From a virus, in IMG/VR virus record IMGVR_UViG_3300025120_014745, positions 1-64,000 of that record: DNA of 64,000 nucleotides. One strand, given 5' to 3'. A program made the translations under genes and the position numbers. This document shows, piece by piece, positions 13,031-35,534 of the stretch (position 1 is its first letter; every line of letters begins with the position of its first letter). The notes under the pieces were generated by a model, which ran no database searches, was not told where the DNA came from, and saw only the letters and a list, made by a program, of their open reading frames with translations.

Positions 13031-14941
13031 ATGGAAGATTTTGGAAGCTCAGATGTTGTTTTTGTAGCTGATATGTTTCTTGAAGAATACGGTGGTGGGG
13101 CTGAAAGAACAACAGGGGCACTTTTTGAGCTGTCACCTTATAAAACTTGCAAGATTAAATCAAATCAAGTAACACAAGAACTAATACAACAAGGCGCAAG
13201 TAAGTTTTGGGTGTTTTTTAATTATCGAGAAATGGATCATAATTTAATTCCTTTGATTGTTGCAAACTGTCATTATGCGATTATAGAATATGATTATAAA
13301 TTTTGTCAGTACCGTTCAATCGACTTGCATAAAAGAGAAACCGGTAATAATTGTGACTGCCATGACCAACAACTAGGAAAAATAATTTCCGCTTTTCTTC
13401 ACGGTTCGGAACATATTTTTTGGATGTCGAAACGTCAATCTGAAATTTACCACGAAAGATTTCCGTTTTTAAAAGAAAATAAACAGACAGTTTTAAGCTC
13501 GATATTTTCAATTGGAGACCTAGAGTTCATTGAAAGGCTCAAGAACGCAAGGGAAGAAAACGGCTGGAATGAAAATCATTGGGCAGTTATCGACGGTAAT
13601 AGTTGGATTAAAGGCGTAGAAGAGAGTACAATCGCAGTCACAGAAACATTCCCAGAAAGTACTGTAGAAGTACTTGGAGGGTTGTCTTATTATGATTTAT
13701 TAAAGTCGCTATCAGAGTTTCACGGATTGTCATTTCATCCTCTTGGTGGTGATACATGTCCAAGAACAGTAATTGAAGCTTCACTTTTAGGTTTAGAACT
13801 GTTGATTAATGATAATGTACAACATATGAGTGAAGAATGGTTCGCCGGTGATGTTGATGAAGTTGAATCTTATTTATTAGGGCGTCCCCAAGTTTTTTGG
13901 GACACGATATCTAATTTTATTGAAAGAGATATAATGTTAAGCGGGTACACAACAACAAAAAATGTTATTAAAAGTGACTACCCGTGGAGAGAATCAATAC
14001 AATCATTGTTAGCATTTTGTGATGAAGTCGTAGTTGTTGACGGCGGATCAGATGACGGAACATGGGAAAATCTTGAGTCTTGGGCAATCCATGAAGAAAA
14101 GCTTAAGATATACCAAGTAAAAAGAGACTGGAACCATTATAGGTTTGCAGTTTTTGATGGTCAGCAAAAGGCAGTAGCCCGTTCACTTTGCAAAGGCGAC
14201 TGGTGTTGGCAGATGGATGTAGATGAAGTTGTCCATGAAAATGACTACGAAAAGGTTAAAAAACTAGCCAGGCAGATACCAAAATCGGTAAAGCTTGTTT
14301 GTTTACCTGTAATTGATTACTGGGGGAAGGAGGATAAGGTCAGAGTTGATGTAAATCCTTGGAAATGGAGATTATCAAGGAATGATACACATATCACTCA
14401 CGACATTCCTGCCCAGCATCGAAGATATGATGAAAAAGGAAATGTTTACTCTATTGGATCAGATGGTTGTGACTATGTTCATACAGACAATTATCAACCT
14501 ACACCTCACATGAGTTTTTATACACCACAACATGAACAAATTAGACAACAGATATTAAATGATAAGAACTTTAAAGAACAGAATTTAAAAAATTATAGCA
14601 ATTTTATAAATGCAGCGTCAAGAGAGCTACCTACTGTTCACCACTACTCTTGGTTTGACATAAAAAGAAAGATTTTTACTTACAAAAATTACTGGAGTAA
14701 GCATTGGGCTAGCCTTTACAATAAGACGACTAAGGATGTACCTGAAAACAACATGTTCTTTAATAAGCGCTGGTCTGAAGTTAGTGATATTGAAATTGTA
14801 AATTTAGCAGAAAAAATGGATAATGAACTAGGTGGGTGGATTTTCCACAGCAGGGTAGATTTTAATAACCCAACACCTTGGTATAAAATGGAGTCAGGAC
14901 ATCCTGACTTAATTAAAGCATGGCTTGAGGAGCGTAAATAA
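13031..14941 (+). CDS. Bifunctional glycosyltransferase: GT-B-like plus GT2 domains
   Basis: The 636-residue product joins two domains. Residues 1-290 resemble a GT-B (GT4-like) fold, ending with the donor-site-like segment FHPLGGDTCPRTVIEASLLG (236-255). Residues 300-600 are a GT2 domain with DGGSDD at 337-342 and the metal-binding DVDE at 396-399, in which the first Asp-x-Asp binds the nucleotide sugar. A fused GT-B/GT2 protein could add two sugars in succession. The N-terminal domain lacks a clear Rossmann glycine loop apart from EEYGGGAERT (18-27), a reasonable acceptor-side loop. GTAGGAG precedes the ATG. It opens the 22 kb island, and its stop overlaps the next start by one base (TAATG). 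Confidence 0.8.
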   Translation: MEDFGSSDVVFVADMFLEEYGGGAERTTGALFELSPYKTCKIKSNQVTQELIQQGASKFWVFFNYREMDHNLIPLIVANCHYAIIEYDYKFCQYRSIDLHKRETGNNCDCHDQQLGKIISAFLHGSEHIFWMSKRQSEIYHERFPFLKENKQTVLSSIFSIGDLEFIERLKNAREENGWNENHWAVIDGNSWIKGVEESTIAVTETFPESTVEVLGGLSYYDLLKSLSEFHGLSFHPLGGDTCPRTVIEASLLGLELLINDNVQHMSEEWFAGDVDEVESYLLGRPQVFWDTISNFIERDIMLSGYTTTKNVIKSDYPWRESIQSLLAFCDEVVVVDGGSDDGTWENLESWAIHEEKLKIYQVKRDWNHYRFAVFDGQQKAVARSLCKGDWCWQMDVDEVVHENDYEKVKKLARQIPKSVKLVCLPVIDYWGKEDKVRVDVNPWKWRLSRNDTHITHDIPAQHRRYDEKGNVYSIGSDGCDYVHTDNYQPTPHMSFYTPQHEQIRQQILNDKNFKEQNLKNYSNFINAASRELPTVHHYSWFDIKRKIFTYKNYWSKHWASLYNKTTKDVPENNMFFNKRWSEVSDIEIVNLAEKMDNELGGWIFHSRVDFNNPTPWYKMESGHPDLIKAWLEERK

Positions 14942-15246
14942 TGCAAACAGAAAATTTATTTCAAGTCTTTTCACAAGTTTTTATACAGAGTCAGACGTCT
15001 TTCAACAAATGTGACGTAGAATTAAGGGCTAAATGTAGAACACTTGCAGAAAAACTAAATCAGGTAGTAGCTGAATTAGAAAAGGATCCTTTCCTGGCAG
15101 ATTTGACTTTGCTTTCGTCTTTAGAAGAAGATACACTTCACATATTGAGAAGTACTTCTGAAATAGAAAGTAGAAGAAGTCACATCAAAGAATCAGTTAG
15201 ATCTTTGCAAGATTCAACACATATTAAAGCTACAAGGAGAATTTAG
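14941..15246 (+). CDS. Small helical protein of unknown function
   Basis: The 101-residue product is mostly amphipathic helix (VELRAKCRTLAEKLNQVVAE and the Ser/Arg-rich end RSTSEIESRRSHIKESVRS), with two cysteines at 24 and 31 and no membrane segment. It starts inside the stop of the preceding bifunctional glycosyltransferase (TAATG) and ends just before the ATG of the next, so it is firmly in the operon. I recognise no family. A structural partner or scaffold for the flanking glycosyltransferases is possible but unsupported beyond position. Confidence 0.6.
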   Translation: MQTENLFQVFSQVFIQSQTSFNKCDVELRAKCRTLAEKLNQVVAELEKDPFLADLTLLSSLEEDTLHILRSTSEIESRRSHIKESVRSLQDSTHIKATRRI

Positions 15247-15969
15247 ATGAAAAATACAGTATGTTTTCTGACCCCTACTTACAATGCTTCCTTTCACTTA
15301 AAAGATTGCTACGAATCTTTAAAAGAACAATCCAATCCAAACTGGAATTGGGTTATTTTAAATGACATGTCAAATGATGATACTTACGAGATAGCAGTTA
15401 GTATTGCTGAATCTGATGAGAAAGAAAGAGTAACGGTAATCAATCACAAAGAAAAGAAATTTGCCTTGAAAGGTATTTACGACCATTTAGATTCATATGA
15501 CGAAAATTCTGAACAAGTAATTGCAATACTCGATGGTGACGATTCAATTTGTAATGAAAATACTGTTGAATTAATTCTAAGCGCATACAATAAAAATTCT
15601 AAACTTGATGCCCTTTGGACGTCACATACTTGGGATATTAATGGTATGAATATATCGAGAGAGCTTCCGGATAATCTAAACCCGTACCAATACCCATGGG
15701 TAAGTTCACATTTAAAAACATTTAAGGTTAATGTTTTTAGAAAGATCAATAGAGATAATTTTAAAGACATGGACGGTAAATGGTTTGAAAGAGGATACGA
15801 TCAAGCATTGTATCTACCTATATTGTACCTTGCAAGAAAAAGAATGTTTTTAGATGAAATATGCTATTTATATAGGATAAATTCTAACTCTTTAAAAGTA
15901 AGAGACTGGAAAGAAAAAAATCAAATGGATGCAATTAGACTAGTTAGAGCAAGAGGATATATAACTTGA
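15247..15969 (+). CDS. GT2 family glycosyltransferase
   Basis: The 240-residue product has the GT-A fold in compact form. The N-terminal FLTPTYNASFHLKDCYESL is the classic nucleotide-binding opening of GT2 enzymes, ILNDMSNDDT follows the second strand, and ILDGDD at 94-99 is the metal-binding DxD site. A Trp/Tyr-rich acceptor region follows (WTSHTWDING; ERGYDQALYLPIL), where ERGYDQ fits the catalytic-base ED-type position. It would transfer a sugar from a nucleotide donor to a growing glycan in the cytoplasm. AAGGAGA lies just upstream. Donor and acceptor cannot be read from the sequence. It overlaps the next gene by 4 bases. Confidence 0.85.
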   Translation: MKNTVCFLTPTYNASFHLKDCYESLKEQSNPNWNWVILNDMSNDDTYEIAVSIAESDEKERVTVINHKEKKFALKGIYDHLDSYDENSEQVIAILDGDDSICNENTVELILSAYNKNSKLDALWTSHTWDINGMNISRELPDNLNPYQYPWVSSHLKTFKVNVFRKINRDNFKDMDGKWFERGYDQALYLPILYLARKRMFLDEICYLYRINSNSLKVRDWKEKNQMDAIRLVRARGYIT

Positions 15970-16871
15970 AAATCTTCACGCACAACTTTAACCCTGAATC
16001 TAATAGTGGGCCAAATAAATTTACACGTACACTACTTAAATCCTTGGTTAAATCTGATCGCATATCACTTAGCAACCAAGAAGAGGCAGACGTTGAGTTC
16101 TGTTTAATCCAACAACAGCTACCTAAGGTTAAACCTATGCTGCTTCGATTAGATGGTATCTGGTTTAATTCCGAGCAAGAGTATAACAAACAGAATGCTA
16201 TAATACAGTATTCATACAATAATGCCGATGCTGTTGTGTTTCAGTCCCAGTTTAACAAAAATTTAGTCGAAGCCTGGTTTGGAGAACATAGAAATTCTCA
16301 CGTTGTAATTAACGCAAGCGATGAAAAATTAATCAATTCAGCAAATAAACGATATTGGGATCAAAAATTAGGTGTCAATACAGAAGTTTGGTGTTGCGCA
16401 TCCAATTGGCGTCCGCACAAAAGGCTTAGTGAAAATATTAGATATTTTTTAGAATTTGCACCAAAGGATGCAATTCTTGCTATAGCTGGCGCGCTAGGCA
16501 TGGATGATGCTAAAAAAATCATAAATGACAGAGTAGTATTGATGGGCGATTTAGATTATATGAGTCTTCTAGCTTTGTATAGACGTAGTTCAACATTTAT
16601 TCACTTAGCTTATTTAGATCATTGTCCTAATGTTGTTGTAGATGCTCAATCAGCCGGCTGCAGAATTGTTTGTTCTTCAACAGGAGGAACAAAAGAAATC
16701 ATTAATGATGGTATTGCAATTCTTGAGGATGAATGGGATTACAAGCCTCTTCCATTATACAGGCCGCCACCCATGGATTTTTCAAAGTCTGTGCATCTAA
16801 AAAAGAGTGAATCTAATGATTTTGAAAAATGTGTTAATACATACTTTGACATAATGAAGGGTATACTGTAG
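15966..16871 (+). CDS. GT4-like glycosyltransferase
   Basis: The 301-residue GT-B enzyme shows an acceptor-side loop near the N-terminus (NPESNSGPNKFTRTL), a central hinge motif CCASNWRPHKRLSENIR that matches the GT4 R/K donor-phosphate segment, and the C-terminal donor loop NVVVDAQSAGCRIVCSSTGG around residues 223-244. The usual E-x7-E motif is weak, with D/A in place of the first Glu. The start is a TTG at 15966, supported by AGAGGA at 15953-15958 and by overlap with the previous stop; no suitable ATG is near. It is flanked by GT2 and GT9 enzymes, so it probably acts in the same assembly line. Confidence 0.82.
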   Translation: MKIFTHNFNPESNSGPNKFTRTLLKSLVKSDRISLSNQEEADVEFCLIQQQLPKVKPMLLRLDGIWFNSEQEYNKQNAIIQYSYNNADAVVFQSQFNKNLVEAWFGEHRNSHVVINASDEKLINSANKRYWDQKLGVNTEVWCCASNWRPHKRLSENIRYFLEFAPKDAILAIAGALGMDDAKKIINDRVVLMGDLDYMSLLALYRRSSTFIHLAYLDHCPNVVVDAQSAGCRIVCSSTGGTKEIINDGIAILEDEWDYKPLPLYRPPPMDFSKSVHLKKSESNDFEKCVNTYFDIMKGIL

Positions 16872-17722
16872 TGGGTTTAGGTGGTTATTTGACATGGACT
16901 GCAGCTGCTCGAGCGATTAGAAATGTCGTTGGAAGTAACGTAAAAATGTTACCTGTTGAACAACACGGTAATTTTCTTAAACTTATTAAAAGCCCATCAT
17001 TTTACGATAATTCTGACTTTTTTGTCGGTGAAAGCGAAAATGAAAACCAGTTTCTTTTACCACTTATCTTAAACAACCCTAGTGCTAATTATTGTAAAAA
17101 TGACACACCCCAAAAAGCTTTTCATCGATATGACAAACATATAATAGAACAAATTTGTGAGTGTTACGGAGTACAAAATCCCGAATTAAAATGCATCATC
17201 AATTTAGATAATAAAGAAAAAAGCTGGGCAGAAAACTTTCACAAGTCTATGCTGAACGGAGAAAAATATATAACAATTGAACCATTTTCAAAAGACAACT
17301 ATACACCGAATAGAAAGTACCCGATTGAAAAGTGGCAGTTAATTGTTGACGCTCTCTGTAATAAGATAAAAGTAGTGCAAGTTGGCAACCATGGTGCACC
17401 TGTCTTAAAAAACGTTGTAGACTTGACCGGTAGTACATCATTTAGGCAAGCAATCGCTGTAATAGAAAGATCACAATTGTTACTTGCAACAGAAAGCGGG
17501 CTAGTACACGCTGCAACAGCTGTCAATACAAAATCTGTAGTTGTTATAACTGGTTACCAGTCAGAAAAAATGGTAGCATACCCTCAAAATATAAACATAA
17601 ACATTGCGACACACGGGCCCTGTGGTTTAAAAGTTGAATGTCCTAGTTGTAAAAAAGATGCTGAAAATTATGACTGGAGAAAAATACTAGATTTAGTACA
17701 AGAAGAATTATGTCTAAAATAA
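16871..17722 (+). CDS. GT9 heptosyltransferase-like glycosyltransferase
   Basis: The 283-residue product starts with GLGGYLTWTAAARAIRN, the GT9 opening seen in ADP-heptose:LPS heptosyltransferases. The C-terminal half carries ITIEPFSKDNYTPNRKYPIEKW, VQVGNHGAPVLKNVVDLTG and TESGLVHAATAVNTKSVVV; the last is the family's donor-binding G-L-x-H-A motif. The gene begins with GTG at 16871 overlapping the previous stop, with AAGGG upstream. GT9 enzymes use ADP-heptose, and the next two genes encode the two activities that make it, so the pairing is strong contextual support. The acceptor is unknown. It is shorter than WaaC (about 320), missing mainly the N-terminal acceptor region. Confidence 0.87.
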   Translation: MGLGGYLTWTAAARAIRNVVGSNVKMLPVEQHGNFLKLIKSPSFYDNSDFFVGESENENQFLLPLILNNPSANYCKNDTPQKAFHRYDKHIIEQICECYGVQNPELKCIINLDNKEKSWAENFHKSMLNGEKYITIEPFSKDNYTPNRKYPIEKWQLIVDALCNKIKVVQVGNHGAPVLKNVVDLTGSTSFRQAIAVIERSQLLLATESGLVHAATAVNTKSVVVITGYQSEKMVAYPQNININIATHGPCGLKVECPSCKKDAENYDWRKILDLVQEELCLK

Positions 17723-18105
17723 TCTTTACTAACGGATGTTTCGATATCATACATCGCGGCCATATTGAATTATTAAACTTCTGTTTTAGTTTAGGTGATA
17801 AGGTAATTGTTGGTCTGAATAGCGATAATAGCATAAAAAGATTGAAAGGTAATTCAAGACCGGTCAACAGTCAACAAGACAGAAAAACTATTTTAGAAAG
17901 TATTAAATATGTTCATAAAGTAATTGTATTTAATGAAGATACACCTTATAATCTAATTAAAGATCTAGAACCTGACGTTATAGTAAAAGGGGGTGATTAC
18001 AACCCTGAAGACGTCGTAGGAAGAGATCTTTGCGAGGTTAAAATATTTAATTATGTCGATGGTTACTCAACAACAAAAACAATACAAAGTTTTACTGATA
18101 GGTGA
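17710..18105 (+). CDS. hldC: Heptose-1-phosphate adenylyltransferase (HldE C-terminal type)
   Basis: The 131-residue protein matches the nucleotidyltransferase half of HldE/RfaE nearly end to end. It has TNGCFDIIHRGHIELL with the HxGH nucleotide-binding motif, LNSDNSIKRLKGNSRPVN, KGGDYNPEDVVG and GYSTTKTIQ, all diagnostic for D-glycero-beta-D-manno-heptose 1-phosphate adenylyltransferase. Length is that of the isolated domain. In E. coli this domain follows the kinase domain in one protein; here the order is reversed and the two are separate genes overlapping by 53 bases. The product, ADP-heptose, would feed the GT9 enzyme encoded just upstream. This is one of the most certain enzyme assignments in the island. 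Confidence 0.93.
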   Translation: MSKIIFTNGCFDIIHRGHIELLNFCFSLGDKVIVGLNSDNSIKRLKGNSRPVNSQQDRKTILESIKYVHKVIVFNEDTPYNLIKDLEPDVIVKGGDYNPEDVVGRDLCEVKIFNYVDGYSTTKTIQSFTDR

Positions 18106-18838
18106 GACATGTCAAGACATATATGTTTTTGGTAGTATTGACAGGTTAAGTCCTGAAGCACCCGTACCAGTTCTTAAAAAAACAAGTGAAGAAATAAAAT
18201 CAGGAATGAGCAGAAACGTTTATAAAAATATATTGTCCATGTCAGAAAATGTTAGTATAGATATTTTTACAAATAAAGTAGAAAATATACGTAAGATTCG
18301 TTATATTGACACAAAATCAAACTACCAGATTATGAGATGTGATATTGAAAACGTAACTCGTGTTTTTTGTATTGATGAATTAGAATTAAAAAACTATGAC
18401 GCAGTCGTAATATCAGATTACAATAAGGGCTTCCTAACTAATTATGAAATTTCATCCTTATGTAAAACATTCAAGACAAAAAGTATATTTGTTGATACAA
18501 AAAGAAAAAACGTCGAATGTTATCAAAACTGTATTTTAAAAATAAATGATAAAGAAACAAGCGAAATGTCAGGTTTGAACGATAATAATGAAGTAATCAC
18601 AACGCAAGGTCCTGATGGTTGTGTGTATAGAGCTGAACATTTTCCTGTTAAGAAAGTTGATGTCCACGATGTTTGTGGAGCCGGCGACGTTTTTTTAGCT
18701 GCACTTGTTGTGAGGTGGCTTGAAACAAGTAATATGAAATTATCGATAAAGACAGCAAATAATTGCGCTGCGTTGAGTGTAACAAAACTTGGTTGTTATA
18801 CAATTAAAAGGGAAGAATATGAAAACTTATGTGTTTGA
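18053..18838 (+). CDS. hldA: Heptose-7-phosphate kinase (HldE N-terminal, PfkB family)
   Basis: The 261-residue PfkB kinase begins YKVLLIGETCQDIYVFGSI and has RLSPEAPVPVLK, the RfaE1/HldE hallmark, then KIRYIDTKSNYQIMRCDIEN and the ATP/catalytic motif CGAGD near residue 222. The GGAANVA sugar loop of HldE is changed to a GMSRNVYKNI variant, so sugar specificity may differ. It is shorter than the E. coli kinase domain (about 315). It would phosphorylate heptose 7-phosphate at C1, giving the bisphosphate for the HAD phosphatase encoded next. The start at 18053 lies inside the previous gene; a second ATG at 18059 is equally possible and neither has a good ribosome-binding site, suggesting coupling. 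Confidence 0.88.
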   Translation: MSMVTQQQKQYKVLLIGETCQDIYVFGSIDRLSPEAPVPVLKKTSEEIKSGMSRNVYKNILSMSENVSIDIFTNKVENIRKIRYIDTKSNYQIMRCDIENVTRVFCIDELELKNYDAVVISDYNKGFLTNYEISSLCKTFKTKSIFVDTKRKNVECYQNCILKINDKETSEMSGLNDNNEVITTQGPDGCVYRAEHFPVKKVDVHDVCGAGDVFLAALVVRWLETSNMKLSIKTANNCAALSVTKLGCYTIKREEYENLCV

Positions 18839-19148
18839 TATAGACGGTACAATTTGTACTTTAGCAGGTAGTGATTACAAAAATGCACTTCCGGACACAA
18901 ATCGAATAAAAATGATTAATTCTTTATATGAAGAAGGAAATAAGATTATTTTCCAAACAGCTCGAGGTATGGGAAGATCAAATAATGACAGCCAAGCCGC
19001 GCATGATATGTTTTATAACTTCACAGTTAAACAACTAGACACGTGGGGTGTAAAATATCATAGTTTATTTTTAGGTAAGCCTGCAGGTGACTTGTACGTC
19101 GATGACAAAGGGATAAAAGATGAAGACTTCTTCAACACAAGAAATTAA
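18819..19148 (+). CDS. HAD-family sugar phosphatase
   Basis: The 109-residue minimal HAD protein has DIDGT at residues 6-10 (nucleophile and general acid Asp), FQTAR as motif II with Thr, LGKP as the motif III lysine loop, and YVDDK as the acidic motif IV. I moved the start to the ATG at 18819, which has AGGGAAG upstream; an ATG 30 bases earlier has none and would add residues outside the fold. Small HAD phosphatases of this form occur in capsule clusters. Its position after the heptose kinase suggests the GmhB step (heptose bisphosphate to 1-phosphate), but it lacks GmhB's length (about 190) and zinc loop, so this is inference. It overlaps the next gene by 29 bases. Confidence 0.8.
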   Translation: MKTYVFDIDGTICTLAGSDYKNALPDTNRIKMINSLYEEGNKIIFQTARGMGRSNNDSQAAHDMFYNFTVKQLDTWGVKYHSLFLGKPAGDLYVDDKGIKDEDFFNTRN

Positions 19149-19485
19149 GTTTGTTCCAAAGGGTTGGGGTTTTGAAAAATGGATTGTTAATTGTAGCGAA
19201 TATTGCGGTAAACTACTTTACTTTGTAAAGGGCAGGAAGTGTTCTTGGCACTACCACATTAAAAAGGATGAAGTGTTCTATATACAGTCCGGTAAAATAA
19301 AAGTTTATTTTTCTGATAATGATGATCTAGAAGGTTCAAAAGAAATTGTTTTAGGTCCAGGAGATAACTTTCATGTATATCGTGGTTTACGACACAGAAT
19401 GGAAGCTATTGAAGATACTGAATTGTTTGAGTTTTCAACTCAACACTTTGATAGCGACAGCATAAGACTAGAAAAAGGAGACTAG
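19120..19485 (+). CDS. Cupin-domain protein
   Basis: The 121-residue single-domain cupin has WHYHIKKDEVFYIQSGKIKV, which holds the H-x-H-x5-E metal motif 1, and GDNFHVYRGLRHRMEAIED, which supplies the later His of motif 2. The shape is that of mannose-6-phosphate-isomerase-type cupins in polysaccharide clusters, which may isomerise or epimerise sugars or only bind them. The start at 19120 overlaps the HAD gene by 29 bases and has AAGGGAT upstream. Function in this operon is not determined by sequence. AGGAGA near its end serves the next gene. Confidence 0.8.
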   Translation: MKTSSTQEIKFVPKGWGFEKWIVNCSEYCGKLLYFVKGRKCSWHYHIKKDEVFYIQSGKIKVYFSDNDDLEGSKEIVLGPGDNFHVYRGLRHRMEAIEDTELFEFSTQHFDSDSIRLEKGD

Positions 19486-19487
19486 AC

Positions 19488-20201
19488 ATGAAAAAAGTAA
19501 TGATTCAAGAAAAGTTAAAAGATATGGGCATCTATATTGAAGATATTGTCATGGGTGACTTTGATGTAATTGGTGAGTACACAGCAAAGAAAAATAGAAC
19601 ACCGGATAAACAATCATATAAAACTGCTGGGTGCTTTTTTAGACCTAATTACGAAAGAGGTATTTTAATGTATTACCTGACAAGGAAAAAAGAGTTTAAT
19701 TCTGTTTTAGAGATTGGCTTTGGAAGAGGTTATTCAACGCTTTGTATGGCAAAAGCAATGTGCGATCATGGTATTGAGGGTAAAATCACTACTGTCGATC
19801 CAAATCTTAACGAAGAGTTCCTAAACCAGCTAACAAAAATATTTCCTGGAGAATGGTTTCAGAAAATTGATTTTGTAAGATCAACATCAGACGACTACTA
19901 TAGTAAAAATCCAGACAAAAAATTTGATTTTGTCTATATTGATGGCGATCATAGGTACGAAGCAGTAAAAAACGACTGGGAATACGCAAAGAAAAGTTTT
20001 AATAAAAACGTTCTTTTCGACGATTATATTTTTGGTGATCGGAAACAAAAAGATATTGAGTGTTCTCGAGCAATAAATGAAATTGAAGGATTTAACAAAG
20101 AGGTTATTATAATGGATCGAAGAATGTTCTTCGATGATAGAAGAAAAGCGGACAATGAAATAGACTACGGTCAAGTATTAATAACTAAAATAGAGGATTA
20201 A
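19488..20201 (+). CDS. Class I SAM-dependent methyltransferase
   Basis: In this 237-residue protein the Rossmann SAM-binding motif I is VLEIGFGRGYSTLCMA (73-88), the acidic residue that binds the SAM ribose is D104 in TTVDPN, and FDFVYIDGDHRYEAVKNDW is the signature of the Methyltransf_24 group, with Asp/His residues that can bind a metal. A divalent-metal O-methyltransferase acting on a sugar or hydroxyl is plausible. Such enzymes are common in polysaccharide clusters, where methyl groups cap or hide sugars. It will release SAH, linking it to the SAH hydrolase gene at 35698. AAGGAGA precedes the ATG. Confidence 0.87.
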   Translation: MKKVMIQEKLKDMGIYIEDIVMGDFDVIGEYTAKKNRTPDKQSYKTAGCFFRPNYERGILMYYLTRKKEFNSVLEIGFGRGYSTLCMAKAMCDHGIEGKITTVDPNLNEEFLNQLTKIFPGEWFQKIDFVRSTSDDYYSKNPDKKFDFVYIDGDHRYEAVKNDWEYAKKSFNKNVLFDDYIFGDRKQKDIECSRAINEIEGFNKEVIIMDRRMFFDDRRKADNEIDYGQVLITKIED

Positions 20202-20202
20202 A

Positions 20203-20904: not shown

Positions 20905-20906
20905 AA

Positions 20907-21836: not shown

Positions 21837-21840
21837 CTTT

Positions 21841-22785: not shown

Positions 22786-22839
22786 TCCCATCCTATACAA
22801 TAAATCATTTTTTTGTATTATTTAGACAAACAGGTAGAC

Positions 22840-23895: not shown

Positions 23896-23900
23896 TTGAA

Positions 23901-24992: not shown

Positions 24993-24999
24993 GAGAAAA

Positions 25000-28069: not shown

Positions 28070-28853
28070 AGAAGTACCGGTAATAATATTTGAATTAGAA
28101 GAACGAACAAAAGATTTAGCAGTCTTGTGTTTCAGAAATCTCGGTTTTAAAAATATTATTATATTAGATCATGAAGAGTCTTTTTCTGAAAAAATGAATC
28201 GATTTTTTAATATCGCGCTATCAGAAGAATATCAAGCTCATGATTTGTTCATTAGAAGCGACGCAGATAGATTAGTATTTTCTGGCATGGTTGAATTAGT
28301 TAAAAGTTCTTACGATGCAGTAAAGTCTAGTCAAAATGGATACCTTTTAAGTGAAGGTCATGGTTTTGAATGTTTTATGCAAAAGCTGAGAGGGGCAACA
28401 CCTCACGTCTATTCAAAAAATCTAATAAAACACATTGTTGAAAACAAAGATACACTTGTAAAAGATATCCAAAAACCAGAAAGTCACATAGGCACTTACT
28501 GCAAAGAAGAACTTAAGTGTTTTTATTTTTTTAATTTTTTGACAAACTTACATGAGTTTGAACAGTATCCTTCTAAAATGTACAATGCTTTTTTAAATAG
28601 AATTCACAGAGGTCACCTAAGCTACTATAACTTAGAAAGTATAGCGTCAAATCACTTTTACGGTCCTGCCATGAAGTTAGCTATAGACAATTTTAATAAT
28701 AACAAAAATAGTCCTGTGACTTTGTCTTACACTAAGAATGACTTAAAAATATTGTTAGATAAAGATAAGGTGCTAGGTCCAATTAATGATGTGGAAAAAA
28801 TGTGTAAATACTATGAAAGTGTTTATGACCAATTAAGCGAGAGACATTTTTAA
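28059..28853 (+). CDS. GT2-like nucleotide-sugar transferase
   Basis: The 264-residue protein has a GT-A-like plan: NIIILDHEESF as the first acidic loop, then FIRSDADRLVFSGMVELV around 67-84, where DAD fits the metal-binding DxD. An aromatic-rich C-terminal region (FYFFNFLTNLHEFEQYPSKM) could hold the acceptor. I see no standard GT2 opening (P-x-Y-N). It starts in the stop region of the previous gene (11-base overlap). A family name would need a profile search; it may also be an inactive relative. Confidence 0.55.
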   Translation: MIIEEVPVIIFELEERTKDLAVLCFRNLGFKNIIILDHEESFSEKMNRFFNIALSEEYQAHDLFIRSDADRLVFSGMVELVKSSYDAVKSSQNGYLLSEGHGFECFMQKLRGATPHVYSKNLIKHIVENKDTLVKDIQKPESHIGTYCKEELKCFYFFNFLTNLHEFEQYPSKMYNAFLNRIHRGHLSYYNLESIASNHFYGPAMKLAIDNFNNNKNSPVTLSYTKNDLKILLDKDKVLGPINDVEKMCKYYESVYDQLSERHF

Positions 28854-28854
28854 A

Positions 28855-29910
28855 ATGTATAGTTTTTTTATATTCGGTACCACAAATTTTCAAGATATGC
28901 TACCAGTCTTATTTGAGCATTTAAAGTCTGGCGATGATTGCTGGGTGAGCTTCTTTGATATATTTAGCAAGAAAAGACAATTGTACGATTACAATGTTGA
29001 AGAAATTAAAAGTTTCTTTTTAAAAAAGTGTAAAAGTTATAATTTAAAGTTGCCAACCATCAACTTTTACAGGCATGATGATCAAGAAGATTATTTATTA
29101 CACTACAGTAATCATGATCCTGGCGTAGTTTACATCCAAGAGATTAATCCTAAATATCCAGTGTGGTATCCAAAGATAGCTAGTAAAGCTAAGGTGGTGC
29201 ATTTTGCTTGGTGGGACGAAGTAAAACATTTAAGTTCACCGCGAGTTAAACCAGATATTTCAATATTAAAACAAGCCAGCGATGTCAAATACGGTTATGA
29301 CAAATATCCACACGCATATTTTGGTAATTTAAGGATGGACCATCTACAGTATATAAGTAAAAAAAATGATGTTATAAAAAGATGTTTTATACCGGAAACT
29401 TATTTAAGAATGGGACAAAAAGACAAGAACGATTCATTGAAAATTGCTAAATTTTGTGACAAATTAATCGACTTTTTACACCAGAATAATTTTGAAGTTA
29501 TATGGAAGAAGAGAGAAAAAGGTTATCCGAGAGAAAAATGGTGTAGTCCACTCGACTTAATGAAAAACATGCCTGATGTGATCATTGAAAAAGATCTACG
29601 ATTTCCATCTAGTCTTTGTGAGCACCCATACACCTCAGATTGTTGCATTGTCATAAATGATAGTTTTGCTTTTTTTGATATTATGCACATGAACACAAAC
29701 TGCATAATTTTAACAACTGAGGGCGGCAGAAAACATAAGATCGACGACTTTTTTAGGGAAGACTTTTCAGAAAATATTATTGACATGAAGATAGAAGGTT
29801 GTTGGAAAAAATTAAAAAATCAAATTGAAAAACAAAATACTTTTGAGTATAATATTAAACAACAAACTAATGTTTCTAACAAAATAATTGAGTATATAAG
29901 AACCCTATGA
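28855..29910 (+). CDS. Hypothetical, glycerophosphotransferase/GT-B-like
   Basis: The 351-residue protein has no certain family. A Rossmann-like start (YSFFIFGTTNFQDMLPVLFE) and a C-terminal half with PYTSDCCIVINDSFAFFDIM followed by INLTTEGGRKH-type residues (NCIILTTEGGRK) recall the UDP/CDP-binding half of TagB/TagF and other GT-B proteins, where a Ser/Asp at the S-D-x-S loop binds the donor phosphate. It starts one base after the preceding stop and overlaps the next gene by 4 bases. It is placed directly before the CMP-sugar transferase, so it may use that donor; this is inference from order. Confidence 0.5.
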   Translation: MYSFFIFGTTNFQDMLPVLFEHLKSGDDCWVSFFDIFSKKRQLYDYNVEEIKSFFLKKCKSYNLKLPTINFYRHDDQEDYLLHYSNHDPGVVYIQEINPKYPVWYPKIASKAKVVHFAWWDEVKHLSSPRVKPDISILKQASDVKYGYDKYPHAYFGNLRMDHLQYISKKNDVIKRCFIPETYLRMGQKDKNDSLKIAKFCDKLIDFLHQNNFEVIWKKREKGYPREKWCSPLDLMKNMPDVIIEKDLRFPSSLCEHPYTSDCCIVINDSFAFFDIMHMNTNCIILTTEGGRKHKIDDFFREDFSENIIDMKIEGCWKKLKNQIEKQNTFEYNIKQQTNVSNKIIEYIRTL

Positions 29911-30560
29911 AGAAAGTGATCGTAATCCCAATAAAAACAAATAACCAGCGGCTGCCTGGCAAGAATACTATGATTTTAGCAGGAAAACCTCTGTACCAGT
30001 ATCTTTTCGATACGGTAAGAGATTTACGGCATATAGGTATAGACGTTGTTATTGATAGTTCTGATGATGAAATACTTTCTATTGCTAGGAGATATAATTT
30101 TGGCACTATAAAACGTGATACATCCTTAAACACTCCCGAAACGTCAGGTAACGATTTAATTTTAAATCAAATTAAAAAATTAAATCTAGATGATGATTGC
30201 ATGCTAGGACAGTTTTTCGTAACAACACCATTCTTGGAAAAGAATACAATTGAAAAAGCATTTAGCACAATGGAAAAAACTAACAAGACAAGTTGTTTTG
30301 GTTTGTACACCGTCTATGATAGGTTTTGGTACCAAAGTAAGCCGGTAAATCATAATCCCAAATCACTTGTGGGTACACAATATATGAACCCACTCTTTAG
30401 AGAGGCTGGATTTTATATTTTTAAAGTTGGTGCATTTTTAAACGAGAAATCTAGAATAACAGAAGATTTTGTTAATTTTGAAGTGGACGAAACAGAATGT
30501 ATTGATATCGATACAAACATTGATTTTATGTTTGCAGAATCATATGCTAAATCGAGGTGA
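29907..30560 (+). CDS. CMP-sugar synthetase-like cytidylyltransferase
   Basis: The 217-residue product belongs to the acylneuraminate cytidylyltransferase family (NeuA/KdsB/PseF relatives). IPIKTNNQRLPGKNT at residues 7-21 is the family's CTP-binding loop (P-x-R-x-x-S-x-R-x-P-x-K-N form, with N and Q substitutions). IDSSDDEILSIARRYN carries the acidic metal/CTP site, and TPFLEKNTIEKAF follows. Length is normal. It activates an acid or keto-sugar as CMP. The neighbouring DegT and AroB-like genes suggest the activated compound is not ordinary sialic acid, as no NeuB-type synthase is visible. Specificity is unknown. Confidence 0.85.
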   Translation: MKKVIVIPIKTNNQRLPGKNTMILAGKPLYQYLFDTVRDLRHIGIDVVIDSSDDEILSIARRYNFGTIKRDTSLNTPETSGNDLILNQIKKLNLDDDCMLGQFFVTTPFLEKNTIEKAFSTMEKTNKTSCFGLYTVYDRFWYQSKPVNHNPKSLVGTQYMNPLFREAGFYIFKVGAFLNEKSRITEDFVNFEVDETECIDIDTNIDFMFAESYAKSR

Positions 30561-30566
30561 AAAGGT

Positions 30567-31709
30567 ATGATAATCAAGAAGTACAGGTTAGAATATAGCA
30601 AAGATGATATCGACTTTGTTAAGCAAGAAATTGAGAAGTCATTAAAAAAAGGCTATTTGACCGACGGCGGTCCCAATGTTGATCTTTTTGAAAAGCTGTG
30701 GTGTGAATTCAACAAATCAAAACATTCGATTGCTGTTAGTAACTGTACAGCTGGTTTAGAATGTATACTTCGAGCTCTAGATGTAAAGGGTCATAGTGTC
30801 ATAGTCCCTGCGTATACATTCATTGCATCTGTAATGTCAATCTACAATTGCATGGGAATTCCCATATACGCGGATATATCAAAAGATACCTTATCTTTAT
30901 CACTTGAAAGTATTAAGCGATCAGTGAGGGAAGATACGAAAGCGATTATGGTCGTTCATGTAGGCGGTGTCATATCAAATGAAATTGTCAAAATAAGAGA
31001 ATACTGTGATGAAAAAAATCTTTTTTTGATAGAAGACGCAGCTTGTGCGCACGGAGCCACTTTTAATGGAATTAAATCAGGTAATTTTGGACATGCTTCT
31101 TGTTTCTCTTTTCATCATTCCAAAGTATTAACATCAGGTGAAGGCGGGATTATAACGACAGATTCCTTAGCGTTGAATAAAAGAATTAAAAGAATCAGGG
31201 CAATAGGACTCGACCGGTCTATCAATAACTATGAATCATTCGAGATAGGTAGCAACTCAAAGATGTCAGAAATAACTGCTACCCTTGCCATACTTCACAC
31301 TAAAAAAGCTGAAAGTATCATTGGTGAAAGAAGATCGATTGCAAAAAGATATGATGAAGAAATAATATTTAGTAAGAAATTAAAAAGCTTTAAAATGCCT
31401 GCTAATACGCAGGCAGGTTATTACAAGTATTTCATGTTAGCTCAAAACAAGTCCACCAAAGCCCAATTTTATAAATTCATGAAAACTAAAAACATTGATT
31501 TGCCACCTGCTGCTTATGAGTATACTTGCGACAAGCAAAAAATAAGTTTAAAAATGAATTGTGTGAAGGGTGACACGCTCACAAACTCTTATTACATGAA
31601 AGACCACAATATTTGCCTTCCCATGTATAACGGTTTAAGTCAAAAAGAAGTATCTTACATAATCCAAAATACCAACAAGTTTATTGAGAATTTAAATGAT
31701 AATAGTTAA
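30567..31709 (+). CDS. DegT/DnrJ/EryC1 PLP aminotransferase
   Basis: The 380-residue sugar aminotransferase has the PLP lysine at K186 in CFSFHHSKVLTSGEGG. D157 in LIEDAACAHGATFNG pairs with the pyridine nitrogen, and VSNCTAGLECILRALD plus PAYTFIASVMSIYNCMGIPI are the N-terminal hallmarks. These enzymes convert a keto sugar (or keto-cyclitol) to an amino sugar, usually from glutamate. The typical HSK motif is intact and length is normal. AGGTGAAAAGG precedes the ATG, and the gene overlaps the cyclase by 14 bases. Pairing with an AroB-like cyclase is a hallmark of aminocyclitol pathways, although a simple nucleotide-amino-sugar role is equally possible. Confidence 0.92.
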   Translation: MIIKKYRLEYSKDDIDFVKQEIEKSLKKGYLTDGGPNVDLFEKLWCEFNKSKHSIAVSNCTAGLECILRALDVKGHSVIVPAYTFIASVMSIYNCMGIPIYADISKDTLSLSLESIKRSVREDTKAIMVVHVGGVISNEIVKIREYCDEKNLFLIEDAACAHGATFNGIKSGNFGHASCFSFHHSKVLTSGEGGIITTDSLALNKRIKRIRAIGLDRSINNYESFEIGSNSKMSEITATLAILHTKKAESIIGERRSIAKRYDEEIIFSKKLKSFKMPANTQAGYYKYFMLAQNKSTKAQFYKFMKTKNIDLPPAAYEYTCDKQKISLKMNCVKGDTLTNSYYMKDHNICLPMYNGLSQKEVSYIIQNTNKFIENLNDNS

Positions 31710-32733
31710 ATCAAAAATCAAAGACTATAGTGTACATTTTTCTGAAAGAATAAGTCTTGAAGAAGATTTTTTCCTAATTGACAGAAAAGTTTATGCACTA
31801 TACAATGATATCTTTGAAAACGTTGATATATCTAAAATAGTTTTAATTGATGCGCTTGAAATAAACAAGACGTATACAGCTTGTGAAAAATACATTGAAG
31901 CTTTAATTAGTCTTGGTTTGAAACGAGGTAATACTATAGGTGCAGTAGGTGGAGGCATAACCCAAGATATCACTGGGTTTATTTCAAGTATTGTATTTAG
32001 AGGCGTAGATTGGAACTTCTACCCCACAACACTCTTAGCACAATGCGATAGTTGTATTGGTGGAAAAACATCAATCAATTTAGGAAATTACAAAAACTTA
32101 GTAGGTAACTTTAATCCACCAAAAAAAATTGTGATCAATGAAAGTTTTTTAAAAACGCTATCAATGAAGGATATCCAGTCAGGTCTAGGTGAAATTATAA
32201 AGATTAGCGTAGTCGACAAAAAATCAAGAATTGCGCCAGCTAAAATTAAAATGTGTTTATCTGAATCTTCTATTGATAACGAAACTATAAAACTAGCATT
32301 GCAAATTAAGAAAGAAATAATTGAAATTGATGAATTCGACAACGGATATCGCAATGTTATGAATTTTGGACACACATTTGGCCACGCAATTGAATCGATG
32401 ACCAAGTTTAGAATACCGCATGGTGTTGCTGTAGGGTTAGGTATCGACATTGCAAATAAAATAGCGTTAGCTGATAATTACACAGACATAGATTTAGATC
32501 GCGATGATGTTATTTCCGTTTTTAAATCTAAAAATGCAGAACACTACGAAACATTTAGACAGTTTTTCGATACCGATTCTTTTTTAAATGCTTTAAAAAG
32601 TGACAAAAAGAATAAAAACAAAGATGAAATAAGGTGTATACTTGCAAGGAATAAAGGTGACTTGAGTATAGTCACATATTCTGAATCTAATATCAGAGCA
32701 TTAATAGAAAAGATAGATATTGAAAATTTATAA
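31696..32733 (+). CDS. Dehydroquinate-synthase-like sugar phosphate cyclase
   Basis: The 345-residue NAD-dependent cyclase belongs to the AroB superfamily. The NAD site is GGGITQDITGFISSIVFRG (85-103), then YPTTLLAQCDSCIGGKTSIN and KNLVGNFNPP. The metal ligands are E166 in SGLGEIIK, H226/H230 in NFGHTFGHAIE and H242 in PHGVAVGLG. Standard DHQ synthases have an acidic residue after that last HG (HGEAV); here it is HGV, so the substrate may differ. Sister enzymes make deoxy-scyllo-inosose or epi-valiolone from sugar phosphates. It sits between a DegT aminotransferase and a SIS isomerase, a likely cyclitol cassette. Plain DHQ synthesis is less likely in this context. Confidence 0.87.
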   Translation: MIIVKSKIKDYSVHFSERISLEEDFFLIDRKVYALYNDIFENVDISKIVLIDALEINKTYTACEKYIEALISLGLKRGNTIGAVGGGITQDITGFISSIVFRGVDWNFYPTTLLAQCDSCIGGKTSINLGNYKNLVGNFNPPKKIVINESFLKTLSMKDIQSGLGEIIKISVVDKKSRIAPAKIKMCLSESSIDNETIKLALQIKKEIIEIDEFDNGYRNVMNFGHTFGHAIESMTKFRIPHGVAVGLGIDIANKIALADNYTDIDLDRDDVISVFKSKNAEHYETFRQFFDTDSFLNALKSDKKNKNKDEIRCILARNKGDLSIVTYSESNIRALIEKIDIENL

Positions 32734-32745
32734 ACGGAGGATATC

Positions 32746-33339
32746 GTGGTAACTAATTTTGAAAACATTGAAAATAAATTTAAATTAGCAGTTGATGGAA
32801 AAGATTATGAAAATTTAGTCCAGAAAATAATTAAAGCCAAAAGAATTTACATAATTGGTAATGGTGGGCTGCATTTCGTTGCAAGTCATATGGCAACAGA
32901 CATGTCTAGATTGATTGATAATAAGGCATTTTATTCTTTTGACAGCGTAGGATATATCACTTCTAATTCTAATGATCACGGATTTGGTAAAGTATTTATT
33001 CGATGGTTAGATACCATTGCTATGGTTGACGAAAAAGAGGAAAGTCTAATATTGGGGTTATCATGCTCGGGTAATTCATCGAACATTATTGGGTCTTTAC
33101 ATTGGGCAGAAGAAAAAGGATATATGACACACATGGTCAGTGGCCAAAAATCTACAATACTTAAAGAAAGTATTGATGAAGTAATACTAGATTGCGAGTA
33201 CTTCCACACAGTTGAAGTTCTTTGTCTTATGCTACTATACGACTTGATACACAAAACAGGAAATCACTGTCCATCAATATCAAAAGAAAAGAAAAGAATG
33301 GGTAATTCTTATTTAAGAAGTTTACCACCAAAGGAGTAA
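32746..33339 (+). CDS. GmhA-like SIS-domain sugar isomerase
   Basis: The 197-residue SIS protein has YIIGNGGLHFVASHMATDMS near residue 36, equivalent to the GNGGSAADAQH loop of GmhA. LGLSCSGNSSNIIGSLHWAE gives the phosphate-binding SGNS motif, and DCEYFHTVEVLCLMLLYDLI is in the place of the zinc/catalytic helix. GmhA has Q/E-x-x-H there; here the order is H-T-V-E, so the metal site and perhaps the substrate have changed. GmhA turns sedoheptulose 7-phosphate into heptose 7-phosphate, the first step toward ADP-heptose, and the other steps are encoded at 17710-19148. The start is GTG at 32746 with GGAGG at 32736-32740. Confidence 0.82.
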   Translation: MVTNFENIENKFKLAVDGKDYENLVQKIIKAKRIYIIGNGGLHFVASHMATDMSRLIDNKAFYSFDSVGYITSNSNDHGFGKVFIRWLDTIAMVDEKEESLILGLSCSGNSSNIIGSLHWAEEKGYMTHMVSGQKSTILKESIDEVILDCEYFHTVEVLCLMLLYDLIHKTGNHCPSISKEKKRMGNSYLRSLPPKE

Positions 33340-33341
33340 GA

Positions 33342-34181
33342 ATGAAAATAGGAATAATAGGCAATGGTTTTGTAGGATCTGCGATTATGCATGGATTTAT
33401 ATTGCACGTAGATGACATAATGATATATGACAAAGATCCAAAACGATCGACCCATTCCATGAAAGACTTAGTCAGTAACGCAGACGTTATATTTGTTTGT
33501 GTCCCAACACCAATGTTTGAATCAGGAGAATGTGACTTATCAATTGTGGAGTCAGTTACTGAAGAACTTTCACAATATTCGAGTATTAATAAAAAAGTTG
33601 TTGTGATTAAATCAACCGTTGTTCCCGGCACAACAGAGGGCTTAGCAAATAAGTATCCAGAAATGAAATTTGTATTCAACCCAGAATTTTTAACAGAAAG
33701 AAAGGCTCGACTAGACTTTATCAATACTTCGAGGATTGTGTTAGGTAGTAACAATCCTTTAGCAAATGATACTGTTGAAAAATTATATCGACTGAGGTTT
33801 CCATATACACCTGTTATAAAAACAGACTTTGGAACAGCACAGTTGATCAAGTATATGTGCAATTGCTTTTTCGCAACAAAAGTCTCATTTATGAATGAGA
33901 TGTACCAGGTTTGTGAAGCTATTAATGGTGACTGGAGTGCAGCATTAGAGGGGTTTATAACAGATGGACGAATTGGCAATTCTCATATTGATGTTCCTGG
34001 ACATGACGGCGATTTTGGTTTTGGGGGCAAATGCTTTCCTAAAGATCTGAACGCAATGATAAAAAGAGCTGAAGAACTTGGGGTTTCACCTGATGTAATG
34101 AAAGGTGCATGGGAAAAGAACAAACAAGTCAGGAAAGATCTGGATTGGTATGACATTCCCGGCGCAGTAAGTAAAAAATGA
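33342..34181 (+). CDS. Short UDP-sugar dehydrogenase (UGDH family)
   Basis: The 279-residue product has an N-terminal Rossmann motif IGIIGNGFVGSAIM, CVPTPMFESG, VIKSTVVPGTTEG and NPEFLTERKA, all diagnostic of UDP-glucose/GDP-mannose dehydrogenases. The catalytic cysteine is present (C231 in GFGGKCFPKDLNAM), with a Lys in TAQLIKYMCNCFFATKVSFMNE-type sequence. However, the family is normally about 390-450 residues. The C-terminal nucleotide-sugar-binding domain is missing, and the protein ends soon after the catalytic loop with a natural stop and a normal downstream gene. It may act as a domain-swapped dimer or on a different substrate. AAAGGAG precedes the ATG; it overlaps the next gene by 4 bases. 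Confidence 0.88.
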   Translation: MKIGIIGNGFVGSAIMHGFILHVDDIMIYDKDPKRSTHSMKDLVSNADVIFVCVPTPMFESGECDLSIVESVTEELSQYSSINKKVVVIKSTVVPGTTEGLANKYPEMKFVFNPEFLTERKARLDFINTSRIVLGSNNPLANDTVEKLYRLRFPYTPVIKTDFGTAQLIKYMCNCFFATKVSFMNEMYQVCEAINGDWSAALEGFITDGRIGNSHIDVPGHDGDFGFGGKCFPKDLNAMIKRAEELGVSPDVMKGAWEKNKQVRKDLDWYDIPGAVSKK

Positions 34182-35071
34182 ATGTTAGTTTAGTAACAGG
34201 TGGGTGTGGCTTTATTGGTAGTCACATTGTTGACAGGTTGATATCTTTAGGTCACGAAGTACGTGTTATTGACGATTTATCAGCAAGTGAAAACGAGATG
34301 TTTTATTATAATGATCAAGCAACTTATTATCAAGAAGATATATCGAAAGATAACTGCAGCCACATTTTTAATAACGTCGACCATGTTTTTCACCTTGCTG
34401 CACGTAGTCGCATCCAACCCACTATTGGCTCGCCCAATCAATGTTTTGAGGTTAATGTTGTAGGTACACAGAGGGTCCTAGAATGGTCAAGAGATAACTC
34501 TGTAAAGCGCGTAATATATTCAGGTACTTCCTCACTGTACGGTCACCAGAATCAAATACCGTTTGCGCCAAATATGCCCGCCGACTGCCTGAACCCATAT
34601 TCAATGTCAAAGTGGATGGGCGAACAAGTATGCAAACTATATAATCAACTCTACGGACTACCAAGTATTACACTTAGATACTTTAACGTATATGGACCAA
34701 GAGAACCAATTAAGGGAGAATACGCACCGGTAATTGGATTATTTAAGCGTCAAAGTAAGCGTAATGAATTTATGACTATAGTTGCACCTGGAACACAAAG
34801 AAGAGATTTTACATATATCGAAGATGTTGTGGAAGCAAATATCCTCGCAATGAATGCATCAACTGTTGACATACCATTTAACATCTATAATGTTGGAACA
34901 GGAAAAAATTATTCAATGATTGAAATAGCAGAGATGATTGGTGGTAAAAGAGATGTGATTCCTTCACGTCCTGCCGAAGTTCAAGAAACACTTGCTGATA
35001 TTGAAGATACGATAAATGATTTAGGCTGGTTACCTAAACACAAATTGAAGGATAAGATAAATGCCTACTAA
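34178..35071 (+). CDS. NAD-dependent sugar epimerase (extended SDR)
   Basis: The 297-residue extended short-chain dehydrogenase has the NAD motif TGGCGFIGS (7-15) and the active-site Y141-S-M-S-K145. HLAARSRIQPTIGSP is at the NAD-ribose region, TLRYFNVYGPRE is the strongly conserved epimerase motif, and GTQRRDFTYIEDVVEA follows. This is the UDP-GlcNAc/UDP-glucose 4-epimerase group. The last residues are shorter than usual. It starts within the last bases of the dehydrogenase gene and ends in the next gene by 11 bases. Its position beside a UGDH-type enzyme resembles uronic acid pathways (oxidation then C4 epimerisation), but the substrate is inferred. Confidence 0.92.
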   Translation: MNVSLVTGGCGFIGSHIVDRLISLGHEVRVIDDLSASENEMFYYNDQATYYQEDISKDNCSHIFNNVDHVFHLAARSRIQPTIGSPNQCFEVNVVGTQRVLEWSRDNSVKRVIYSGTSSLYGHQNQIPFAPNMPADCLNPYSMSKWMGEQVCKLYNQLYGLPSITLRYFNVYGPREPIKGEYAPVIGLFKRQSKRNEFMTIVAPGTQRRDFTYIEDVVEANILAMNASTVDIPFNIYNVGTGKNYSMIEIAEMIGGKRDVIPSRPAEVQETLADIEDTINDLGWLPKHKLKDKINAY

Positions 35072-35534
35072 ACAAGACGGACAATCAATTGCACATTCTT
35101 CTATGAAGATAGGTTTAGTTGCAGGAAACTTTGATGTGATCCACCCTGGGTATGTAAAGTTATTTGAAGATGCTAAAAAAAATGCATGCAATGTTTTGAT
35201 TGTAGCATTACAAGGAGATCCGACAATAGAAAGACCTTATAAATGCAAACCCGTTCAGACAGTTGAAGAAAGAGAATATATTCTTAGATCTCTAAGTTAC
35301 GTAGACGACGTTGTCCACTACAACACAGAAGAAGAGCTCTTAAATTTGTTAGTAACAGCTGATTGGGACGTCAGAATAATAGGTACAGACTATAAAAATA
35401 TTGATTATACGGGGAAATATTTAGAAAAAGAACTTAATAAGTCTGTGTATTTTCATAAAAGAGATCATGAATATTCTCTAACAGACTTAAAGAAAAAGAT
35501 AATGGAGCAGATGCTCGCGCAAAACAAAGGTTAA
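35061..35534 (+). CDS. TagD-like cytidylyltransferase with altered HxGH motif
   Basis: The 157-residue nucleotidyltransferase of the glycerol-3-phosphate cytidylyltransferase/RfaE2 fold has IGLVAGNFDVIHPGYVKLFE with the active-site loop reading HPGY (28-31). In typical members it is HxGH, and the second His stabilises the pentavalent phosphate, so catalysis could be weak or the enzyme may have a changed donor. RTVEEREYILRS-type sequence (VQTVEEREYILRSLSYVDDV) and IIGTDYKNIDYTGKYLE fit the fold. I kept the ATG at 35061 (AAGGA eight bases upstream) rather than an internal ATG at 35103, which has none. It overlaps the epimerase gene by 11 bases and closes the island. Confidence 0.8.
   Translation: MPTKQDGQSIAHSSMKIGLVAGNFDVIHPGYVKLFEDAKKNACNVLIVALQGDPTIERPYKCKPVQTVEEREYILRSLSYVDDVVHYNTEEELLNLLVTADWDVRIIGTDYKNIDYTGKYLEKELNKSVYFHKRDHEYSLTDLKKKIMEQMLAQNKG

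Follow-up and report, generated by a model that had tools for sequence, protein, structure and literature searches.

Why would a phage carry a long block of sugar genes, and which molecule receives their product? The question is raised by positions 13031 to 35534 of IMG/VR record IMGVR_UViG_3300025120_014745. This linear virus record has 67,611 bases, and the window analysed here (G000 in the comparisons) comprises its positions 1 to 64,000. The block contains 27 open reading frames (ORFs), all on the plus strand and nearly all overlapping or less than 15 bp apart; genes are named below by their start positions. A first-pass annotation made from the sequence alone had described about 26 co-directional, overlapping genes of a phage glycan pathway. 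Its coordinates are correct, and the pathway is supported by Pfam and NCBIfam, which assign most of the ORFs to the synthesis, transfer and decoration of sugars. Comparison with relatives reveals a hypervariable cassette at a fixed site, of which the block represents one allele. The best explanation, to which we give a probability of about 0.5, is that a glycan is assembled in the cytoplasm on a phage-encoded acceptor, likely a virion protein, and that the core of this glycan is conserved while its outer sugars change with the exchange of cassettes.

The window carries markers of a T4-like myophage, namely PhoH (7949), a gp25-like protein (43727) and a gp6-like protein (44220), together with a distant match to the late sigma factor (40725). 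The markers MCP, TerL and PolB were not found in the window. Relatives were gathered by searches with PhoH, the S-adenosylhomocysteine (SAH) hydrolase, the AroB-like cyclase and the anchor glycosyltransferase (GT), and their gene neighbourhoods were then read. The order PhoH, fibre, 13031, cassette, PD-(D/E)XK nuclease, GT, GT, sigma factor, gp25 and gp6 is kept across relatives. The anchor GT 13031, which heads the cassette in relatives, was found in 12 of 16 records examined.

Between the two anchors the cassette ranges from zero genes up to approximately 25 kb. The distance from the start of the anchor GT to the nuclease is 24.0 kb in the window, 25.4 kb in G001, 7.3 kb in G006, 5.9 kb in G007 and 18.6-23.3 kb in G011-G014. 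Five loci (L136, L143, L150, L153 and L180) have an empty site, where the anchor is followed by the nuclease after a gap of 23-52 bp. The cassette type is discordant with the phylogeny of the core genes, as two comparisons with the window show: G014 has PhoH and nuclease proteins 90-92% identical and only 9 reciprocal best hits among 26-30 genes, whereas the core proteins of G023 are merely 51-68% identical, yet 22 of 24 cassette genes are common. Altogether, the 468 cassette proteins of 55 loci fall into 180 families, and 113 families are singletons; some loci are near-duplicates, so that the counts are not independent. Only the GT2 protein 15247 (41 loci) and the GT4 protein 15966 (28 loci) belong to families present in at least half of the loci. 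As read from gene order and content, the fixed anchors, the empty sites and the swapping of alleles are established features of this site. More distant phages (L177-L195) have a rearranged order, in which the nuclease and the two GTs are followed by the GT-B half of the anchor, alone or in a protein of approximately 540 amino acids, and then by the cassette.

The functional block runs past 35534, including the SAH hydrolase 35698, the nuclease 37071 and the GTs 38002 and 39255. Many of the NCBIfam matches lie below the curated equivalog cut-offs, so that the enzyme classes are firm and the exact substrates are not. From the fibre to the right boundary and the core GTs, the features are as follows.

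9905-12970, plus: fibre-like structural protein, 1021 amino acids, built of repeats with a conserved N-terminus; candidate acceptor
13031-14941, plus: left anchor, two-domain GT with an N-terminal GT-B/GT4-like and a C-terminal GT2/GT-A domain (PF00535/PF13704; GT4 and GT2 by profile-profile comparison)
14941-15246, plus: small protein found in some relatives
15247-15969, plus: GT2 glycosyltransferase (PF00535), the commonest cassette gene
15966-16871, plus: GT4 glycosyltransferase (PF00534)
16871-17722, plus: GT9 heptosyltransferase-like protein (PF01075)
17710-18105, plus: RfaE domain II-like sugar-phosphate nucleotidyltransferase (TIGR02199, 159 bits, cut-off 181.5), 42-48% identical to cyanophage homologues
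18053-18838, plus: PfkB/RfaE domain I-like sugar kinase (PF00294, TIGR02198)
18789-19148, plus: HAD phosphatase of the capsule-biosynthesis type (TIGR01689, 44 bits, below cut-off)
19120-19485, plus: cupin, PHROG 7851; 60-62% identity with homologues from the corresponding heptose-type module of cyanophages
19488-20201, plus: S-adenosylmethionine (SAM)-dependent methyltransferase (PF13578)
20203-20904, plus: weakly matched 2-oxoglutarate-Fe(II) oxygenase-like protein (PF13640, E 0.12; 0.0027 in the G012 orthologue) with an HxD...H motif
20907-21836, plus: divergent GT4 glycosyltransferase (profile-profile 98.7% to the 15966 family)
21841-22785, plus: ORF kept in several cassettes
22813-23895, plus: radical SAM-SPASM enzyme (PF04055, PF13186)
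23892-24992, plus: UDP-galactopyranose mutase Glf, forming UDP-galactofuranose (PF03275, E 9.6e-76)
25000-25911, plus: ORF
25908-27395, plus: B12-binding radical SAM enzyme (PF04055, PF02310)
27392-28069, plus: ORF with a kinase-like motif by eye only
28059-28853, plus: ORF, possible GT-A (DxD by eye)
28855-29910, plus: ORF
29907-30560, plus: CMP-sugar cytidylyltransferase of the PseF/KdsB/NeuA type (PF02348, TIGR03584, PpNeuA)
30567-31709, plus: DegT/DnrJ/EryC1/StrS sugar aminotransferase (PF01041, E 3e-83)
31696-32733, plus: AroB-related sugar-phosphate cyclase (TIGR04425, best family by far, 374.4 bits, cut-off 400)
32746-33339, plus: SIS isomerase, GmhA (phosphoheptose isomerase)-like (TIGR00441, below cut-off)
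33342-34181, plus: UDP-glucose dehydrogenase-like protein, short form without the C-terminal domain (TIGR03026, 199.6 bits, cut-off 189.8)
34178-35071, plus: NAD-dependent nucleotide-sugar epimerase of the GalE/WbpP type (PF01370)
35061-35534, plus: second RfaE II-like nucleotidyltransferase (TIGR02199, 69.7 bits)
35698-37014, plus: SAH hydrolase, accessory (PF05221, E 4e-122)
37071-37913, plus: right boundary, PD-(D/E)XK nuclease, core gene (PF12705)
38002-39252, plus: core GT4 glycosyltransferase 1
39255-40439, plus: core GT4 glycosyltransferase 2

The first-pass annotation had counted eight to ten GT-like proteins. Five proteins with six GT domains are supported inside 13031-35534 (13031 with two domains, 15247, 15966, 16871 and 20907), and the remainder is unproven or over-counted: Pfam families and profile-profile comparison did not support a GT identity for 21841, 25000, 28059 or 28855. 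A WaaP-like kinase was considered for 27392 and is not supported; this ORF has no family match.

The gene content implies several activated sugars. A heptose-type set is suggested by the isomerase 32746, the kinase 18053, the nucleotidyltransferase 17710, the phosphatase 18789 and the GT9 protein 16871. Glf (23892) points to galactofuranose, for which the epimerase 34178 could in principle supply UDP-galactose, and the short dehydrogenase 33342 to a UDP-glucuronate type of sugar. The cytidylyltransferase 29907, the aminotransferase 30567 and the cyclase 31696, which are contiguous also in G001 and G023, might together yield a CMP-activated amino-cyclitol-like sugar. Decoration is implied by the methyltransferase 19488, the weakly matched oxygenase-like protein 20203 and the two radical SAM enzymes. 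The SAH hydrolase 35698 would recycle the product of SAM-dependent methylation and relieve product inhibition. G001 has a third radical SAM-SPASM gene (oriented 27406-28224; L089:11777-12595, minus strand) between the AroB-like and the GmhA-like gene; it is missing from the window, and G023 has a gene of similar size at that place. The G007 cassette encodes a GT64 (exostosin-family) domain fused to a GT25-like stretch (L093:13590-14984), a type that is, to our knowledge, rare in phages.

The first-pass annotation had allowed for an assembly error or for the pickup of a chromosomal lipopolysaccharide (LPS) locus that the phage does not use. A large and variable block that is absent at five relatives' loci might also be headful "stuffer" DNA, an idea raised for cyanophage clusters (PMC3037559). 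Against G001, where dS is unsaturated, the island genes have dN/dS values of 0.03-0.23; the mean pN/pS values are 0.17 for the island and 0.19 for the backbone. GC content at third codon positions is 0.27 in island and backbone alike, and the GC content of the island matches the phage. G001 and G002, recovered from separate samples, are 100% identical in PhoH, the fibre and the seven cassette genes present in G002. Purifying selection, matched composition and independent syntenic contigs count against stuffer, error and recent unused pickup, to which we assign next to no probability; the same evidence rejects a host chromosomal LPS locus or a chimeric contig. Genome contigs of 84,980 species were also scanned for a host locus, a narrow search with one query and two peptide patterns. 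The only matches were two contigs of metagenome-assembled Gastranaerophilales genomes (L111 and L112), each with an AroB-like cyclase that shares 44% identity with 31696 within its own polysaccharide-like, unrelated cluster.

Where would the glycan be assembled? A hydropathy scan for transmembrane (TM) helices found no protein with at least two of them among the 468 cassette proteins, nor in the island of the window. The Escherichia coli O16 and colanic acid loci, used as a control, have 6 such proteins among 31 (Fisher p 4e-8). Multi-TM proteins are likewise missing from the clusters of phages immuto, Mel-JY01, P-TIM68 and S-SSM7. Thus, the cassettes encode no flippase, polymerase, transporter or initiating transferase, and on these predictions a self-sufficient O-antigen or capsule pathway is excluded. 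A protein with seven predicted TM helices (L178:16649-18274, 541 amino acids) is the only one of its kind among 155 proteins from the rearranged loci.

The core GTs suggest where the acceptor might be sought. The proteins 13031, 38002 and 39255 comprise four GT domains and are retained where the cassette is empty. In G011, G012, G020 and G022, 38002 is 61-73% identical to its counterpart while the baseplate protein gp6 reaches 42-53%; in phages of Flavobacterium and Microcystis the values are 29% and 31-34%. A GT that is about as conserved as gp6 or more so is best explained by an acceptor travelling with the phage. The anchor 13031 could be modelled with a predicted local distance difference test score of 77, and of 94 for its C domain. 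Against the PDB, its GT2 domain scores best by profile with the flagellin glycosyltransferase GmaR (E 3e-4) and by fold with the peptide glycosyltransferase SunS (E 1e-10, TM-score at most 0.45). Both enzymes act on protein or peptide, a suggestive hint at a protein acceptor. A PDB search with the N-terminal domain of the anchor gave no match, and the anchor itself had no match in any phage record.

A candidate for this acceptor is the fibre-like protein 9905-12970. It has a conserved N-terminal region of approximately 100 amino acids, a variable body and five to six copies of a repeat of approximately 58 amino acids (consensus DVxxLLSGTxGSxGxxxRGxxLxxGDxVVSGT), and it has no family match. Relatives encode proteins with one to nine copies of this repeat at or near the same spot, and the repeat ranks with the best conserved stretches of fibres that are otherwise unrelated.

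In the mechanism that we propose, the core GTs 13031, 38002 and 39255 would build a common core glycan in the cytoplasm of the infected cell, on a phage-encoded acceptor that is most likely a virion protein of fibre, tail or capsid. The cassette would make rare activated sugars (heptose-type, UDP-galactofuranose, UDP-glucuronate and CMP-activated amino-cyclitol-like), which would be added as variable outer residues, with O-methylation, hydroxylation and radical SAM chemistry as decoration. Recombination between the fixed anchors would exchange cassettes, so that close relatives would carry different "serotypes". The role of such a glycan might be to shield the virion surface or alter its contacts. 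The sugar identities, the protein acceptor and this role are inferred.

Several observations weigh against a virion-protein acceptor. Adjacency, which in the first-pass annotation favoured the fibre or the host surface, is a weak argument: a large gene directly precedes the first GT in 30 of 48 relatives whose upstream sequence could be read and is missing there in the other 18. The fibres of G000 and G008 are 67% identical over 69% of their length, yet only 8 of 20 cassette genes are common. The type of fibre does not follow that of the cassette, and the case for the fibre as sole acceptor is weakened. The resemblance to GmaR and SunS is weak, with teichoic-acid GTs scoring almost equally. 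The heptose-type enzymes and the GT9 protein resemble an LPS-core toolkit. In the E. coli waa locus WaaL is the sole multi-TM protein, and because LPS-core genes can be TM-free, the absence of TM helices is compatible with a lipooligosaccharide (LOS) acceptor.

The main rival is accordingly a remodelling of the host LOS or LPS core, in which cytoplasmic GTs would extend lipid A-core, host MsbA/Lpt would export it and superinfection would be blocked. Besides the heptose-type module, the GT9 heptosyltransferase-like protein and the CMP-sugar transferase, weak matches of 38002 to WaaG and of 16871 to WaaF speak for it, as does the fact that LPS-core enzymes need no TM helices. It is also the usual reading of cyanophage and pelagimyophage clusters (PMC7029224, PMC7824862). 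We nevertheless consider it unlikely, while giving it more weight than any other rival. No cassette encodes a ligase, flippase, polymerase or initiating transferase, and the core GT pair is common to Flavobacterium and Microcystis phages and inherited with baseplate genes. The LPS cores of Flavobacterium and Microcystis are expected to differ. LOS made late in the lytic cycle would, moreover, probably replace little of the surface.

That the GTs glycosylate phage DNA at hypermodified bases as a protection against host nucleases appears improbable to us. The core GTs adjoin a PD-(D/E)XK nuclease, and DNA glucosylation has been raised for the core GTs of moraphages (PMC12619734). T4-type glucosylation needs a dCMP hydroxymethylase or another enzyme of the thymidylate synthase family to supply the hydroxymethylated base. 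PF00303 was absent from G000, G006 (236 kb), G007, G011, G012, G018 and G021, and the only records that contain it are the distant G019, G020 and G022; several of the records are fragments. No thymidylate synthase or dCMP hydroxymethylase-type gene was found in G006, G007, G011 and G012. This makes classical glucosylation of hydroxymethyl bases unlikely for the clade, with the caveat that the records may be incomplete. A Tet/JBP search was uninformative, as it gave no match in any control. Many rare sugars and highly polymorphic gene content would be needless for protecting DNA. The first-pass annotation had left fibre, capsid, host envelope and DNA open as targets; the lack of export machinery and of a thymidylate-synthase-type gene in the 236-kb relative narrows this choice. 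Slightly less probable still is a block that makes a diffusible sugar-derived metabolite or mainly shifts nucleotide-sugar pools. Pathways to aminocyclitols and secondary metabolites often include AroB-like, DegT and radical SAM enzymes, and something similar has been suggested for a second cluster of cyanophages (PMC7824862). The constant linkage to a conserved GT set argues against it, and no exporter or resistance gene was seen.

Large sugar clusters are already known from P-SSM2, S-SSM7 and pelagimyophages, so that the phenomenon is not categorically new and the scale of the block, called unusual for a phage in the first-pass annotation, is only partly so. The function of the large LPS clusters of P-SSM2 and S-SSM7 was left open (PMC3037559), and a jumbo-phage study described the polymorphism of cyanophage LPS clusters and proposed a change of host O-antigen (PMC7824862). 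The cyanomyophages P-SSM2, S-SSM7, S-SM2 and P-TIM68 are likewise T4-like and have large nucleotide-sugar and GT clusters near phoH or the tail fibre, but they belong to another phage lineage and lack the 13031 anchor; in the lineage of the window, the cassette site has fixed anchors, empty versions and a nearly complete exchange of alleles. The module 17710-19485 (RfaE II, PfkB kinase, HAD phosphatase and cupin PHROG 7851) is 39-62% identical at the amino acid level to P-TIM68 and S-SSM7 (L196, L197), which suggests a mobile sub-cassette that moves across unrelated phage families. The hypervariable region of pelagimyophages, a host recognition cluster, comprises fibres, GTs, rfaE and genes for UDP-glucose dehydrogenase and radical SAM enzymes (PMC7029224). 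It lies between vrlC and gp14, whereas the cassette of the window lies between PhoH/fibre and the nuclease-GT-GT-sigma-gp25-gp6 segment and, unlike it, is bordered on either side by conserved core GTs.

Moraphages resemble the window as large aquatic T4-like phages with PhoH, gp6, gp25 and a sigma factor; four GT orthogroups form part of their core, and their variable islands are noted without explanation (PMC12619734). By gene content, these orthogroups would fit the core of four GT domains. The closest isolates by gp6, Flavobacterium phage immuto and Microcystis phage Mel-JY01, have the same order of nuclease, GT and GT, with a GuaB gene inserted in Mel-JY01. Identity is approximately 30%, and 13031 has no match there; their small glycan cluster lies beyond the GT pair, on the other side than in the window. 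Together with the moraphage paper, these isolates offer a lead to Bacteroidota as host. The E. coli O16 and colanic acid loci share Glf, nucleotide-sugar enzymes and GTs with the window but encode Wzx, Wzy and an initiating transferase, of which the window has none. Serotype-converting gtr clusters encode the flippase GtrA and the membrane proteins GtrB and Gtr(type), whereas the island has no multi-TM protein. With mycobacteriophages, which glycosylate virion proteins, the window shares soluble phage-encoded GTs.

Elsewhere in the window, 667-6377 is a block of PHROG families that is syntenic in relatives. It includes a GroEL-like protein (5130), one family with a weak match to a sporulation protein and another with weak ATPase matches. 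In the structural region, two very large proteins (47593-51093 and 52216-56517) have laminin-G/ConA-like lectin domains and are possible sugar-binding adhesins.

What our comparison adds is a site framed by two anchors, with empty versions, a nearly complete exchange of alleles and no export genes over 55 loci. Sugar clusters of aquatic phages have so far mostly been read as modifiers of host LPS or as possible stuffer DNA. Anchors, empty alleles, swapping, purifying selection and the lack of export genes argue for cytoplasmic assembly and for selection acting on the product itself. The 180 cassette families also form a catalogue of sugar enzymes for study. Bacterial O-antigen and capsule loci likewise have conserved flanks and a swappable centre. 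Phage serotypes, in which virion proteins would carry a conserved core and an allele-specific outer glycan and whole alleles would be exchanged at one site, are a tentative idea that we hold at somewhat less than even odds. If true, they would be the phage counterpart of bacterial O-antigen and capsule switching. If the glycan is on virions, these phages would have switchable surface serotypes, which would bear on host range, on phage exclusion and on defence against surface recognition.

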